64,000 nucleotides of DNA from Pseudomonas putida (GTDB lineage: Bacteria > Pseudomonadota > Gammaproteobacteria > Pseudomonadales > Pseudomonadaceae). The translations under genes and the position numbers were made by a program. The stretch covers positions 4,512,001 through 4,576,000 of the forward strand of contig NZ_CP113097.1 in the NCBI RefSeq assembly GCF_026625125.1, given 5' to 3'. Shown here piece after piece: positions 3,316-44,376 of this stretch. Within the stretch, counting starts at the first letter, position 1; each line of letters begins with the position of its first letter. The notes beneath the pieces were generated by a model that did not search any database, was not told where the DNA came from, and worked only from the letters and a program-made list of their open reading frames with translations.

Positions 3316-4388
3316 AACGCTAGATCCTCAGGTGTAAATGTCATCTTGAACGAACGATACGGATTGAACTCGTTCGGCTTCAAGCCCTGCATTTCGGTCA
3401 GACGACCGATGTTCTTGACCGCTGCCACCGCCGAACTGTCGAACGGGCCGTCACCACTGGAGCGCGATACGCTGACATTGGTGATGGTGCCATCGGGCAG
3501 CATGTTGATCTGCAGGACTACCGTCATGCCCTTGCGCGCTGAAGGGGGACGCGCCCAACCTTCGGCCGCTCGCATGCGGATCAGGTCGTCGAAATCGCCG
3601 GCCACCTGGTCGCCCTGCTCGTCGGCCAGCGCCTGCTGCCGCTCGGTGGAATCAGACAACAGCTCGGCCAGGGCCTGGGCTTTCTTGTCTTCTGCCGCCT
3701 TGCGGGCCGCTTCCTGTGCCTTTTTCTTCTGGGCATCTGCAGCGGCCTTTTTCTTGGCCTCTTCAGCTGCCTTCTTCTTCGCTTCCTCAGCCGCCGCTTT
3801 TTTCTTGGCGTCCTCGGCTGCTTTCTTCTTGGCCTCCTCGGCTGCCTTCTTCTTGGCATCCTCGGCGGCTTGTTTCTTCGCCTCTTCGGCAGCCTGCTTC
3901 TTGGCCTCTTCCTCAGCCTTTTTCTTGGCGATGTCGGCCTGCTGCTTTTCAGCGGCCTTTTTCGCCTCGTCGGCCTTTTTGGCTTCGGCGGCTTTCTTGG
4001 CTTCGGCGGCCTTGGCAGCGTCTTCTGCCTTCTTCGCCTCAGCAGCTTCGCGAGCCTCTTCGGCCTTTTGAGCGGCATCGGCTTTCTTTTGTTCCGCGGC
4101 CTTCACGGCTTCCTGCTCGACCTTCTTCTGTTCCAGCTGCTCGACTTCGGTCTGACGCGCGGCGGTTTTCTTCGCTTCCCCGGCAATCTTCTGATTGGTC
4201 TGGGTGGTCGCCTGGCTCTTGGACTTGAGCTGATACAGCGTAGCCTGAACGATCGGCTTGGAAGGCGGCAATTCTGGCGTCATGGCAAAACTGACGAACA
4301 GCAATGCGAACACAAGCACATGCAGGCCGATGGCCCAGACACTGGGCCAGAAGTAGCTTTCCGAGGCGGATGGCTCTCGCTGTTGCAT
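3312..4388 (-). CDS. tolA: Tol-Pal inner-membrane protein TolA
   Basis: Inner-membrane protein of 358 residues that spans the periplasm and uses the proton-motive force transduced by TolQR to pull on TolB/Pal. A single membrane segment lies at about residues 15-35. Residues about 60-230 are a long helical rod made of Ala/Lys/Glu repeats such as [12 protein letters not shown]. The C-terminal globular domain (about 240-358) contains [19 protein letters not shown] and is the TolB/phage/colicin-binding part. The gene overlaps the tolR stop by one base (TGATG). The repeat-rich middle gives internal low-complexity DNA, but I see no frameshift. Confidence 0.96.
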
Positions 4389-4840
4389 CAGGGCGCCTCG
4401 GTAATCAGGCCAACGTTACCGACACCGGCCTTCTGCAACCCGCCCATGGCACCCATGACCGCGCCGTAGTCGACAGCCTTGTCGCCACGAATGAAGACCT
4501 GGGTCTGCTTGCCCTGGTCGCGACCGGCGGCAATGATCTTGGTCACTGCACTGGTCATTTCGGGCAAGGTCATGGCCTTGTCCATCTGCTTGTCGGTATC
4601 GACTTCGCTGCCCAGGTTCCAGTAATACGTCTTGTCGGCTTTGATGGAGATGGTCAGGATCTGGACATTGTTGTCCTGCGGCAAGGCTTCGCTGGAAACC
4701 TTGGGCAGGTCGACCTTCACGCCCTGATTGAGCATGGGAGCCGTCACCATGAAGATGACCAGCAGCACCAGCATCACGTCGATGTAGGGCACCACGTTCA
4801 TCTCGGCGACCGGCTTGCGTTTGTGGCGAACTCGGGCCAT
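4388..4840 (-). CDS. tolR: Tol-Pal inner-membrane protein TolR
   Basis: ExbD/TolR family protein of 150 residues, partner of TolQ in the proton channel. One membrane segment (about residues 17-37) contains the conserved proton-carrying Asp21 in VVPYIDVMLVLLVIF. The periplasmic C-terminal domain follows. The start at 4838-4840 gives MARVRHKRKP, the usual basic cytoplasmic tail; a longer in-frame extension would run into tolQ coding sequence. Fourteen bases separate it from tolQ. Confidence 0.96.
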   Translation of the reverse strand: MARVRHKRKPVAEMNVVPYIDVMLVLLVIFMVTAPMLNQGVKVDLPKVSSEALPQDNNVQILTISIKADKTYYWNLGSEVDTDKQMDKAMTLPEMTSAVTKIIAAGRDQGKQTQVFIRGDKAVDYGAVMGAMGGLQKAGVGNVGLITEAP

Positions 4841-39105: not shown

Positions 39106-39588
39106 TTACTCGGCACCAAGCTGTAACAAGCCGTCTAGCGCGGCGATCACCGTCTGTCGGCGCACTGCTTCACGGTCGCCGTCGAAGTGGCGACGCTCAC
39201 TGATCACATGACTGCCATCGGCCCATGCCAGCCACACGGTACCAACGGGTTTGGCCGGCGAGCCACCATCGGGCCCGGCCACACCACTCACCGCCACGGC
39301 GAAACGCGCACCGCTGGCCGCTTGGGCGCCGCGCACCATGGCTTCGACCACTTCCTGACTGACTGCACCTACCTGGGCGAACAAATGTTCAGGGACCCCA
39401 AGCTGGCGGGTCTTCTGAGCGTTGGAGTAGGTGACATAGCCAGCCTCGAACCAGGCGGAGCTGCCAGGTACGCGGGTGATAGCTTCGGCGATGCCACCGC
39501 CGGTGCAGGATTCGGCGGTGGTGACCTGGGCGCTGAAACGGCGCAGGTGTTCGCCCAGTCGGGCGGAGAGAACGGTAATCGGGTCCAT
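39106..39588 (-). CDS. pncC: Nicotinamide-nucleotide amidase (CinA C-terminal domain)
   Basis: Stand-alone CinA C-terminal domain of 160 residues (PncC), which deamidates NMN to NaMN in pyridine-nucleotide recycling. The motif [22 protein letters not shown] is near residues 26-47, and [22 protein letters not shown] carries the second conserved region. I chose the ATG at 39586-39588, which has AGGAA upstream. It sits directly upstream of recA, the usual cinA-recA order. Confidence 0.93.
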
Positions 39589-39695
39589 GTGCAGTTCCTG
39601 GAAGAGAGGCAGAGCCACACCCTAGCATTTGAGGTGGCTGATCGGGACAGGCATTGCTTTACCCAAGCGCACACTTTCGCATGCACATCCTTCAT

Positions 39696-40031
39696 TCACT
39701 CATCGCTCGACGCGTTTTCACGCAAGCCCAGCCGCCTGATCGCCCAGCACTCATAAAGGCGCATGGCAACATCGGCGCCACCTACCGCGGTCAGGCAACC
39801 AAATGCGCTGGCCGCCCAGATCGACAGGCCGCCGGCATAGAGCAACATCACCGTCGAAACGCCGCAGACGATACAGGCGCCGGAGCGCAGCGCCAGTCGT
39901 CGCAGCAGCGACCAACCGGTGGCGCCCGCCTTGTCGGCCCGCCACATTTCGCCGCTGAGGCCGCCCAGCGATGCCAGGACGATCACCAGCCAGAGCGGCA
40001 TCTCCAGTAACACTTGGTGCTCGTTCGTCAC
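39696..40031 (-). CDS. Phage/tailocin-type holin
   Basis: Protein of 111 residues with three hydrophobic segments (MPLWLVIVLASLGGLSGEMW; SGACIVCGVSTVMLLYAG; LSIWAASAFGCLTAVGGADV) and a charged C-terminal tail (CWAIRRLGLRENASSDE). This is the pattern of holins in Pseudomonas R-type tailocin and prophage lysis cassettes. The GTG at 40029-40031 is chosen because GGGAG lies eight bases upstream. No endolysin, spanin or tail gene is nearby. The locus mutS-cinA is a known tailocin site, so this may be a remnant or a minimal cargo. Confidence 0.8.
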   Translation of the reverse strand: MTNEHQVLLEMPLWLVIVLASLGGLSGEMWRADKAGATGWSLLRRLALRSGACIVCGVSTVMLLYAGGLSIWAASAFGCLTAVGGADVAMRLYECWAIRRLGLRENASSDE

Positions 40032-40120
40032 TGCCCTGTCTCCCGTGTGATGCCCACCGGCATCCGCGCTGCCGGCGTAATAAAGGTCTAGCCCGACCTG
40101 AGACACAATCTATGCGTACA

Positions 40121-40130
40121 TGCATATGCA
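40121..40130. promoter_or_regulatory. TGCATATGCA palindrome upstream of the holin
   Basis: Perfect ten-base palindrome about 90 bases before the holin start, within a TGCAT-rich stretch (40117-40140). A closely similar site is at 41009-41020 before the repressor gene. Candidate operator for the CI-like repressor; binding is inferred. Confidence 0.45.
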
Positions 40131-40228
40131 GTCAATGCATTTATTCATTGAAAAGTAAGCTCGGCTTTGCTGATACGCATGAAGGTCTCTGCTCATCAGG
40201 CCTGTAGGACTGTTCACCAGGCGAAAAA

Positions 40229-40250
40229 AAACCCGCCAAAGCGGGTTTTT
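40229..40250. terminator. Intrinsic terminator after the CI-like repressor gene
   Basis: Stem aaacccgc/gcgggttt with a four-base loop. Both strands end in long T-runs; it stops the repressor transcript before the holin promoter region. Confidence 0.88.
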
Positions 40251-40266
40251 CTGAAAAAACGCCTGG

Positions 40267-41004
40267 TCAGCGGGCGTACATGCCCCACCAGAACACATGA
40301 CCGAGCAAGCTGATCTGCTCCTCCTGCAACTGCAGGAAGCTGTAGTCTTCATCAGGGTGCTCGTCGCGATTGAAGCTGCGCAGGCGGATACCCGTGGGCA
40401 ACCGATAAACCTGCTTCACGCGCAATTGGCCATTGTGGTTGATGGCGTAGAGATCGCCATCGATGATGTCACCGATCGAGCACTTGCCGGTATTGACACC
40501 GACCGTCGCCCCATCTCGCAGCACCGGTAGCATGCTGTTGCCGCGCACGGTCACGCACTTGGCCTGGTCGAACTGCACGCCGTTATGGCGCAGGCTGCGC
40601 TTGCCGAAGCGCAGGCGAGCGCGCTCGCTTTCCTCGATGACGAATCTTCCTGATCCTGCTGCCAACTCGACCTCACGGAGAAAGGGTACTGACACCTCGT
40701 CGTCCTCGACGGGCGTTTCATCATCCCACAGGCTGATGTCACTGAGGTCAGCATGGCCGTGTGCGGGCACGGCGGCTTCGCGTGAGGCGCCAAGTTCCGC
40801 GCGGCCGCGCAGCTGTTCAGTGCTGACGCCGAAATAGTCGGCAATTTTCGACACGTGCTTGTCCGAGGGATCGACGATCTTCTCGCTGAGGATCCGCGAC
40901 AAGGTGGACTGAGGCACGCCCGTGCGCCGATGCAGCTCTGTAGGGGACAGGCCGTGGCGGGCGAGCAGTTCTCTGAGTACGGTAGCTACATTGCGTTTTT
41001 GCAT
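40267..41004 (-). CDS. LexA/CI-type self-cleaving transcriptional repressor (XRE HTH plus S24 peptidase)
   Basis: Regulator of 245 residues. The N-terminal XRE helix-turn-helix is at about residues 5-62 (LSPTELHRRTGVPQSTLSRI). The C-terminal S24 peptidase domain has the nucleophile Ser157 (VRGNSMLPVLRDG), the general base Lys197 (GQLRVKQVYR) and an Ala116-Gly117 bond in VELAAGSGR placed where LexA/CI proteins cut themselves. This is the design of phage CI and of PrtR, which holds pyocin/tailocin genes silent until RecA is activated. It lies between the holin and mutS, within two kilobases of recA. An in-frame ATG three codons upstream (41013) is an alternative start; neither has a strong ribosome site. 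Confidence 0.88.
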   Translation of the reverse strand: MQKRNVATVLRELLARHGLSPTELHRRTGVPQSTLSRILSEKIVDPSDKHVSKIADYFGVSTEQLRGRAELGASREAAVPAHGHADLSDISLWDDETPVEDDEVSVPFLREVELAAGSGRFVIEESERARLRFGKRSLRHNGVQFDQAKCVTVRGNSMLPVLRDGATVGVNTGKCSIGDIIDGDLYAINHNGQLRVKQVYRLPTGIRLRSFNRDEHPDEDYSFLQLQEEQISLLGHVFWWGMYAR

Positions 41005-41008
41005 AGCG

Positions 41009-41020
41009 TGCATAATGCAG
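41009..41020. promoter_or_regulatory. TGCAT-A-ATGCA palindrome at the 5' end of the repressor gene
   Basis: tgcataatgcag directly before or overlapping the repressor start, matching the palindrome at 40121-40130 before the holin. Candidate autoregulatory operator. Confidence 0.45.
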
Positions 41021-41151
41021 CGCCGCCGCAGGAAATGCAATCGATGCAGCCGGGTGCAAAGGCGCTCGCCCGCCGCCTGCATCTCGGCCGAAAAGCCTGT
41101 ACCATTGCCGGTTTCACAATCGCCAACCAGATACCCGCTGTAAGGCCCTGA

Positions 41152-43725
41152 ATGTCTGATCTTTCCGCACACACCCCGATGATGCAGCAGTACTGGAAGC
41201 TGAAAAACCAGCACCCGGACCAGCTGATGTTCTACCGCATGGGCGACTTTTACGAAATCTTCTATGAAGATGCGAAAAAAGCCGCAAAACTGCTGGATAT
41301 CACCCTGACCGCGCGCGGTCAGTCTGCCGGCCAGTCGATCCCCATGTGCGGAATTCCGTTCCACTCGCTGGAAGGCTACCTGGCCAAGCTGGTCAAGCTC
41401 GGCGAGTCGGTGGTGATCTGCGAGCAGATCGGTGACCCCGCCACCAGCAAGGGCCCGGTGGAGCGTCAGGTGGTGCGCATCATCACCCCAGGCACCGTCA
41501 GCGACGAAGCGTTGCTCGATGAGCGCCGCGACAACCTGATTGCCGCACTGCTGGGGGACGAGCGCCTGTTTGGCCTGGCAGTGCTGGATATCACCAGCGG
41601 CAACTTCAGCGTGCAAGAGATCAAAGGCTGGGAAAACCTGCTGGCCGAGCTTGAACGCATCAACCCTGTCGAGCTGCTGATCCCCGACGACTGGCCCCGC
41701 GACCTGCCGGCCGAGAAACGTCCGGGCGCACGCCGACGTGCCCCTTGGGACTTCGACCGCGACTCGGCACGCAAGGCGCTGTGCCAGCAGTTCGCAACCA
41801 AAGACCTCAAGGGCTTTGGTTGCGACAAGCTGACCCTGGCCATCGGCGCCGCCGGCTGCCTGCTGACCTACGCCAAGGAAACCCAGCGCACCGCCCTGCC
41901 CCACCTGCGCAGCTTGCGCCATGAGCGCCTGGACGACACCGTGATCCTCGACGGGGCCAGCCGTCGCAACCTGGAACTGGACATCAACCTGGCAGGCGGC
42001 CGCGACAATACCTTGCAGTCGGTGATCGACCGCTGCCAGACCGCAATGGCCAGCCGGCTGCTGACCCGTTGGCTGAACCGGCCGCTTCGCGACCTCAAGG
42101 TCTTGCAGGCGCGCCAGGATTCGATTCGCTGCCTGCTCGATGGCTACCGCTTCGAAAAACTGCAGCCCCAGCTCAAGGAAATTGGCGATATCGAGCGGAT
42201 CCTCGCCCGTATCGGCCTGCGCAATGCCCGCCCGCGGGATCTGGCACGCTTGCGTGATGCCCTCGGCGCCCTGCCCGAACTGCAGAACGCCATGGCCGAG
42301 CTGGAAGCCCCACACCTGGCGCGCCTGGCGGCCATCACCGGCACCTACCCGGAACTGGCCAGCCTGCTGGAGCGGGCGATCATCGACAACCCGCCAGCGG
42401 TTATCCGCGACGGCGGCGTACTCAAGGCCGGCTACGACAACGAGCTGGACGATCTGCTGGCGATCAGCGAAAACGCCGGCCAGCTCCTGATAGACCTCGA
42501 AGCCCGCGAGAAGGCCCGCACCGGGCTTGCCAACCTGAAAGTCGGCTACAACCGGGTGCACGGCTACTTCATCGAATTGCCGACCAAGCAAGCCGAACAG
42601 GCCCCGGGCGACTACATTCGTCGCCAGACCCTCAAAGGGGCCGAGCGCTTCATCACGCCGGAGCTCAAAGCGTTCGAGGACAAGGCGCTGTCGGCCAAGA
42701 GCCGTGCCCTGGCCCGCGAGAAGATGCTGTACGACGCGTTGCTCGAGACACTCATCAGCCACCTCGCACCGCTGCAGGACAGCGCTGCGGCGCTGGCCGA
42801 GCTGGACGTGCTGAGCAACCTGGCCGAGCGGGCGCTGAACCTGGACCTGAACTGCCCGCGTTTCGTCGAGGAACCTTGCCTGCGCATCGAGCAGGGGCGC
42901 CACCCGGTGGTCGAACAGGTACTGACCACGCCGTTCGTAGCCAACGACCTGGGCCTGGACAACAGCACCCGGATGCTGATCATCACCGGCCCGAACATGG
43001 GTGGTAAATCCACCTACATGCGCCAGACCGCACTGATCGTGCTGATGGCGCACATCGGTAGTTTCGTTCCGGCGGCCAGCTGCGAACTGTCGCTGGTCGA
43101 TCGCATCTTCACCCGTATCGGCTCCAGCGACGACCTGGCAGGAGGCCGCTCGACGTTCATGGTCGAGATGAGCGAAACCGCCAACATTCTGCACAACGCC
43201 ACTGACCGCAGCCTGGTACTGATGGACGAGGTCGGCCGTGGCACCAGCACCTTCGACGGCTTGTCGCTGGCTTGGGCGGCTGCCGAGCGCCTGGCGCAGC
43301 TGCGTGCGTACACGCTGTTCGCCACGCACTACTTCGAGTTGACCGTCCTGCCGGAAAGCGAACCGCTGGTGGCCAACGTCCACCTGAACGCTACCGAACA
43401 CAACGAGCGCATCGTGTTCCTGCACCACGTGCTGCCTGGCCCCGCCAGCCAGAGCTACGGCCTGGCCGTGGCGCAACTGGCGGGCGTGCCGTCGCCGGTC
43501 ATCCAGCGTGCGCGCGAACACCTTGGGCGGCTGGAGACCAGCAGCCTGCCCCACGAACAACCCGTGTCGAAAAAAGCCAAGGGCGAGCCACAAGCACCGC
43601 ACCAGAGCGACCTGTTCGCCAGCCTGCCACACCCGGCCATCGAGAAGCTGGGCAAGCTGGACCTGGACGACATGACCCCGCGTCAAGCTATCGAAATGCT
43701 ATATCAACTAAAGAACCTGTTATAA
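41152..43725 (+). CDS. mutS: DNA mismatch repair protein MutS
   Basis: Mismatch-recognition ATPase of 857 residues. The mismatch-binding domain contains the Phe-x-Glu element in [13 protein letters not shown] (about residues 25-40). The connector, lever and clamp domains follow. The ATPase has Walker [14 protein letters not shown] at about residues 611-623, Walker [17 protein letters not shown] and the signature [10 protein letters not shown]. The C-terminus ends in the tetramer/beta-clamp region ([16 protein letters not shown]). A frame remains open along almost the whole opposite strand, which is a composition effect. Confidence 0.98.
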
Positions 43726-44243: not shown

Positions 44244-44376
44244 AAAAAAAGGGGCGGTTTGACCCGCCCACATTTTTTTCCGTAGTCCCTGCTTGTCCTG
44301 AACATCGTCCTGATGAATCGCGTCTTGCGATGTCCTTGGCGCTCTTCCTGAACGCCTGTGCATGTCCGTGTGCACA
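44244..44376 (-). ncRNA. rsmZ: Small regulatory RNA RsmZ
   Basis: About 133 bases on the minus strand, between rpoS and fdxA, the position of rsmZ in Pseudomonas. It has seven GGA motifs, several in hairpin loops (for example catc-aggac-gatg), and ends in a strong terminator (gggcgg/ccgccc then seven T). RsmZ binds and removes RsmA/CsrA-type translational repressors. The 5' end is placed at TGTGCACACGG because a TAGTAT -10 box ends seven bases before it (44383-44388). A GacA site lies about 175 bases upstream. Confidence 0.92.

Follow-up and report, generated by a model that had tools for sequence, protein, structure and literature searches.

Why would a bacterium keep a pore-forming gene of phage type, under a repressor of its own, where the pore has no weapon to release? 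The question is raised by a stretch of Pseudomonas putida DNA of 64,000 nucleotides (hereafter the window; positions are counted from its first letter), which belongs to a Pseudomonas genome assembled as a single contig of 5.86 Mb. The interval between mutS and cinA is a known site of tailocin loci, among them prophage 01 of Pf-5, ssh6 of Q8r1-96 and the locus of P. protegens CHA0, as described in excerpts of the source reports (PMC2647930, PMC7815802). In the window, this interval consists of two minus-strand genes only, an XRE/S24 repressor and a holin of family PF16085. An earlier note on this DNA had offered three readings, namely that a tailocin cluster was lost, that the pair is the founder state into which clusters insert, or that it is a minimal SOS-triggered pore-forming unit. 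Judging from the sequence comparisons given below, we consider it probable that repressor and holin form a minimal SOS-responsive switch, which was derived from a tailocin locus and is still maintained.

Gene content of the mutS-cinA interval

The interval is flanked by mutS (41152-43725, plus strand) and cinA (39106-39588, minus strand, counted from the ATG used here). Between them lie the PrtR/CI-like S24/XRE repressor gene (40267-41004, minus strand, 245 aa), assigned from profiles and residues, and the holin gene (39696-40031, minus strand, 111 aa from a GTG start), which is preceded by a ribosome-binding-like GGGAG. The positions that the earlier note had given for these four genes and for recA were confirmed. 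It had also claimed that the interval holds only two phage-type genes, with no endolysin, spanin or tail gene, and indeed none of these was found between holin and cinA by an ORF scan and a comparison with the proteins of the HAI-2 tailocin. Specifically, ORFs reaching 75 aa were absent from the holin-cinA gap of 107-111 bp, as were matches to the HAI-2 tail, lysin or Rz proteins. Tail genes elsewhere in the genome, the search for which had been suggested as a check, were sought with the tail sheath profile PF04984, and none was found in the whole genome, the same search being positive in 3 of 14 genomes. The HAI-2 tailocin lysin had no match in the whole genome either, in a search run without a positive control. 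The window thus has the site, the PrtR-like repressor and the holin of a mutS-cinA tailocin; tail structural genes are missing from the interval and, as examined with PF04984, from the genome, and endolysin and spanin genes are missing from the interval. The window also carries an RsmZ/PrrB regulatory RNA at 44244-44376 on the minus strand (Rfam RF00166, 131 bits).

The repressor matched the profiles Peptidase_S24 (E = 8e-18), HTH_26 (6e-11) and HTH_3 (2e-10), so that it combines an HTH with an S24 domain bearing the Ala-Gly, Ser and Lys of self-cleaving repressors. The numbering of these residues in the earlier note was correct (Ala116-Gly117, Ser157 and Lys197), and all of them are identical across the 38 solo loci, that is, the loci of the same kind collected in the census below. 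RecA-mediated cleavage has been reported for PrtR of P. aeruginosa in the part of a review drawn on here (PMC10598620), and the window repressor would be expected to undergo RecA-induced cleavage as well. PADLOC gave three weak matches for the repressor, all to the N-terminal HTH region, and no match for the holin.

The holin was matched by Phage_holin_3_5 (PF16085) over residues 2-108, with an E-value of 1.3e-47 and 161 bits against a cut-off of 27. It is the only PF16085 holin of this genome. The protein also matches PHROG 3897, a group without assigned function. PF05449, considered as a holin family, had no match anywhere and was rejected. A related holin, PFL_1211, was lethal to E. coli when induced alone, according to the available portion of the report (PMC2647930), and by analogy the window holin is predicted to be lethal.

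Promoter and operator sites

A sigma-70-like promoter of the holin, TTGACT-17-TAGATT, lies at 40107-40135 on the minus strand; the promoter scan found 1 site where 0.7 were expected, which is weak when taken alone. Between its -35 and -10 hexamers, at 40111-40126 (no strand assigned, as for the motifs that follow), is a candidate operator close to TATGCATNNATGCATA, with one mismatch. At up to one mismatch, this palindrome occurs at a single place in the 5.86-Mb genome, which is within the holin promoter. A TGCA-N5-TGCA motif at 40127-40139 overlaps the -35 hexamer, and two more, at 41000-41012 and 41036-41048, lie on the 5' side of the repressor gene and are candidate half-sites for its product, the former overlapping the start of that gene. 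The 64-kb window holds six such motifs in all against 2.6 expected. As a genome-wide search motif, TGCA-N5-TGCA was rejected as too common (335 places against 69 for the reversed control), and the 16-bp palindrome was therefore used instead.

The 130 bp upstream of the repressor contain on average 2.5 TGCAT/ATGCA half-sites in 37 solo loci as compared with 0.24 in shuffles. At least two are present in 25 of the 37, and one solo clade of eight loci has none or one. The promoter-operator block scored 22-30 of 31 in all 38 solo loci and at most 19 in 760 mononucleotide shuffles, its consensus being derived from the same solo spacers that it scores; the score of the window was 26 of 31. These patterns suggest that the repressor binds at the candidate operator and half-sites. 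Between the repressor gene and the holin promoter, a hairpin with a T-run (40224-40251, minus strand, -14.5 kcal/mol) is likely the repressor terminator. This hairpin was seen in the sequence and is unlisted in a simple terminator scan, which gave 0 sites against 2.0 in shuffles.

A leader RNA in tailocin carriers and its absence from the window

In locus L095, the tailocin operon starts with a leader, at about 4190-4430, between promoter and holin. Repressor and holin stand in order in 77 of 80 named loci, and the sequence GGCAACTGRCCCRGGTGTGCAGCGTAAAGCACC was found between them, within six edits, in 73 of the 77. The four loci without it (L011, L029, L042 and L048) are exactly those in which cinA lies less than 1 kb from the holin and which have no leader.

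The leader alignment comprised 59 of 69 representatives (55 distinct rows; ten representatives were left out). Covariation was seen over 16 pairs in three hairpins, with 99.3% of cells paired and six pairs changed on both sides in 33 such cells, whereas shuffles gave means of 94.7% paired, 2.5 both-side pairs and 6.4 cells, and slid versions at most 48% paired. RNAalifold recovered these three hairpins and added a weaker fourth, which was excluded from the count of pairs since prophage-type rows are misaligned in that part. In one of the left-out representatives (L307, the second copy in G377), the first hairpin is missing and the second is broken, which speaks against these hairpins being universal. 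A search of Rfam 15 gave no match in the leader; at a relaxed E-value, the HAI-2 leader gave sub-threshold matches only, all at or near the repressor terminator, and a prophage copy gave none. A terminator-like hairpin 3' of the leader was found by a strict expression in at least 57 of 82 loci, and this number is a lower bound since five of the six printed misses are variants of the hairpin (L013 is not).

At least 120 viral stretches carry the leader. Among the matches listed, 81 have relatives of the repressor and the holin within the set distances and 11 are without both relatives, some of them because the stretch ends. Some prophage copies lie upstream of RecT, YqaJ or AAA genes. In phage PseuP_224, a copy stands just after cI on the same strand, within a 126-bp hypothetical ORF, and in the Q8r1-96 record the leader stands unannotated between prtR and com. 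Loci L298, L150, L302, L310 and L311 also contain the leader; several are prophages, some with the leader ahead of RecT/YqaJ genes.

In phage HK022, the put antitermination RNA, which is structured, comes just after a phage promoter under repressor control. By its covariation, the leader of the carriers is likewise a structured RNA; it opens a repressor-controlled operon, after prtR or cI, and its position recalls the put sites of HK022. We therefore propose that it may act in antitermination as a candidate put-like element, the two being alike in position only.

A genome listed under the window's own species, G215, has an R-tailocin at the mutS-cinA site and is presumably P. putida HAI-2 (L005 and L095). 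Its holin and cinA are 12.8 kb apart, and 9 of 10 ORFs scanned in the insert match baseplate, fibre, sheath, tube, hub, GH19 lysin or Rz families. As aligned with L095, the window has a junction at 40052-40073 (minus strand) in the place of the carriers' leader RNA and hairpin. Both flanks of the leader are kept (GGCAGCG and GCCGGTGGGC), and leader and hairpin are absent, so that the holin directly follows the repressed promoter. This absence is a feature of the window beyond those described in the earlier note.

Census across Pseudomonas

Among the 398 Pseudomonas genomes sampled, 268 had a holin relative (E <= 1e-10) and 253 a repressor relative (E <= 1e-60). Allowing up to 3 mismatches, the core of the leader was present in 209, all among the 253 repressor-bearing genomes, and 44 genomes had the repressor without the leader when the lists were compared by hand. 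Reading covered 41 of these 44 (G106, G222 and G223 were left out). Two genomes, G069 and G397, had no holin, mutS or cinA relative in the stretch read; in G340 the contig ends and the leader is present with 4 changes. At all 38 readable leader-negative loci, cinA lay at most 2.3 kb from the holin, and in 32 it lay within 500 bp. One of them, in G292, was confirmed as solo on reading, with 84 bp between holin and cinA. Note that the 38 solo loci on which our analyses rest are those of the census without G292, with the named locus L048 added. The earlier note had held that its reading would fail if the two genes never co-occurred in related genomes; the pair does recur in relatives, and that objection is rejected.

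In seven loci of the solo set, cinA lies more than 500 bp beyond the holin. A lysin relative lies between holin and cinA in L085, L048, L224 and L228, and L096, L234 and L241 have more than 500 bp there without a match to HAI-2 proteins. In L096 and L241, which are otherwise solo, about 2.2 kb with several ORFs separate the two genes, including ORFs for proteins of 190-194 aa that are alike over their first 60 residues. Loci L086-L090 and L253 are intermediate, in that leader and holin are followed by a GH19-type lysin relative, with cinA about 1.1-1.4 kb downstream; most of them also carry an Rz relative.

Insert sizes were taken from the 149 genomes with a holin place among the matches listed, 141 of which were measurable; another 118 genomes with a holin entered the tally without their places being listed, G364 excepted. 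The insert was 10-80 kb in 120 of the 141, and all 120 have the leader somewhere in the genome. Inserts of at most 5 kb were found in 20 genomes (14 with the leader, 6 without), and one measured genome was anomalous in that its best holin is elsewhere. The holin-only loci of G225 and G376 retain the leader, so that loss of the leader is no condition of the solo state. A literature search over open-licence PMC text, titles and abstracts found nothing on the solo pair or on the leader, which is weak evidence of novelty.

Maintenance of the holin in solo loci

The holin frame is open in all 38 solo loci (for L249, in which the match started within the gene, the spacer supplies the preceding codons in frame), and most of the 38 have an AGGAG-type ribosome-binding site. 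The median dN/dS of solo holins was 0.048-0.209 in eight groups, assembled by hand from trees and covering 36 of the 38 loci, and that of tailocin holins was 0.023-0.153 in four groups. In the P. putida group, the value for solo holins (0.208) was higher than that for their tailocin neighbours (0.071), and the end branches of the holin tree were longer (window 0.11, L084 0.24 and L085 0.19, with a median of 0.047), indicating that some relaxation is possible. Pairwise dN/dS of the window holin was 0.05-0.15 against 0.04-0.13 among tailocin pairs. For the window alone, selection after the loss is indistinguishable from ancestry; for the old solo clades, the substitution patterns point to clear purifying constraint on the holin.

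These data bear on the possibility that the pair is a passive remnant, in which recombination between the conserved repressor-holin segment and the lysis/cinA side swapped or removed the tails, and repressor and holin stayed merely by lying outside the exchanged part. A recombination hotspot between prtR-hol and lys was proposed in the portion of the report considered here (PMC2647930). In addition, the window and the same-species carrier share 87.7% identity over the holin stretch (39696-40031; 4478-4810 in L095), as against 98.1% and 98.7% in its flanks, which makes allele exchange at the holin likely in one or the other genome, and the raised dN/dS of the P. putida-group solos points in the same direction. 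However, whole clades keep solo holins at dN/dS of 0.05-0.08 with no frame closed in the solo set, and the leader is missing in the window and other solos; as it sits between repressor and holin, tail loss alone would leave it in place. We thus regard a passive remnant as unlikely, and a maintained holin switch as the better account of the pair.

Repeated origin of the solo state

The mutS tree, which was built with a quick method and SH-aLRT support only, has 100 rows, of which 34 are solo, 59 labelled tailocin and 7 intermediate. Here, the tailocin label means that no cinA was found in the downstream DNA examined. At least three HAI-2-type tail proteins were present in 53 of the 59 tailocin-labelled rows; L036, L059, L063, L068, L076 and L081 had none, and their inserts may be of other kinds. 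The solo label changes 14 times on this tree, at least six of the changes being forced by well-supported branches, and 15 times (at least six forced) on the holin tree of 126 rows, in which columns are few and the bootstrap is unsettled. The window groups with HAI-2 on the mutS tree, nested among carriers. Leader stubs in L085 and L230, and decayed leaders or hairpin in L233, L234 and L239, are losses caught midway. The solo state recurs across the genus, with the conserved leader RNA lost in most cases, which is a new finding.

In two clades of the mutS tree, every row sampled is solo (9 of 9 and 4 of 4), with no leader remnant noticed in the spacers by eye, so that a founder state is possible for those clades, with repressor and holin at mutS-cinA before tail insertion and the solos keeping the original arrangement. 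As an explanation of the window, to which the earlier note had applied it, the founder state does not fit, since on the mutS tree carriers surround the window and several other solos, the sequences that border the leader in carriers are both still present in the window, and five loci retain the stubs or decayed leaders named above; overall, we consider it improbable. On the other hand, the suggestion that a cluster was lost fits the window lineage: the window is nested among carriers, and G215, listed under its own species, carries an R-tailocin there, so that the tails were lost or replaced in the window lineage. It is likewise improbable that the pair serves as a docking site, to which tail clusters return by homologous recombination, or as an immunity site, whose repressor shuts down incoming elements that share its operator, because, although the several state changes on the trees and the likely allele exchange around the window holin would suit such roles, neither would require solo clades to hold their holin under purifying selection or to preserve its frame and ribosome-binding site.

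A candidate self-killing switch and known systems

In a minimal SOS-responsive switch of the kind proposed here, the S24 repressor in an undamaged cell would occupy the operator between the -35 and -10 hexamers of the holin promoter, as well as the half-sites at its own promoter. Upon DNA damage, activated RecA would induce self-cleavage of the repressor, the holin would be transcribed directly, without a leader, and holin oligomers would breach the inner membrane, so that the cell is killed or depolarised. Given that no endolysin lies beside the holin, death would probably occur without fast lysis. In tailocin carriers, this promoter is followed by the structured leader RNA, the terminator-like hairpin and then the holin, tail and lysis genes. 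In loci without the tails, the leader has usually disappeared as well, and repressor, promoter, ribosome-binding site and holin remain. The pore-forming unit of the earlier note gains support from the half-sites at both promoters, the single operator, and the S24 residues and open frames kept in 38 of 38 loci, features of sequence that favour it and stop short of proof.

The recurrence in related species of this pair, the pared-down core of a phage-tail weapon, suggests that it could still serve as a small self-killing switch. As a holin gene that lacks any cargo to release and has a damage-sensitive repressor of its own, it is a very simple candidate for such a switch, and its repeated origin beside recA makes the question of why a pore is kept without a weapon testable. 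More tentatively, and with less confidence than we place in the switch itself, Pseudomonas tailocins and several temperate phages might share an undescribed antitermination RNA family, and tailocin loci might repeatedly become one-gene SOS suicide switches by losing the RNA, the terminator and the tail genes, so that the holin sits directly under the repressor; the window would then be a clean example of convergent reduction.

Compared with the tailocin loci of Pf-5, Q8r1-96 and CHA0, as far as the excerpts describe them, the window is alike in site, orientation, the PrtR-like repressor by mutS, a homologous holin and the promoter-operator block, but differs in being without tail, endolysin and spanin genes and without the leader RNA. 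With the PrtR/PrtN control of pyocins in P. aeruginosa, as outlined in part of one report (PMC10598620), it would share an S24 repressor responding to RecA; no prtN-like gene was found in the mutS-cinA interval of the window. The same part of that report states that prtR is present and prtN absent in plant-associated strains, and calls the regulation of such clusters unclear. Our comparison suggests a way in which these tailocins could be regulated without prtN, namely by a repressor at the holin promoter together with a conserved leader RNA.

The alp death system of P. aeruginosa, in the sections available to us (PMC7969949), is alike in that a self-cleaving repressor restrains a lysis gene and DNA damage is the trigger. 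However, the window has no alpA-like antiterminator and no alpCDE-like genes between repressor and holin, and its repressor seems to control the holin promoter without an intermediary. A separate antiterminator gene alpA and the lysis genes alpBCDE have no counterpart in the interval, which comprises repressor and holin only. The window pair resembles the alp pathway with fewer parts and is not a member of it; it is derived from a tailocin and is no longer a tailocin.
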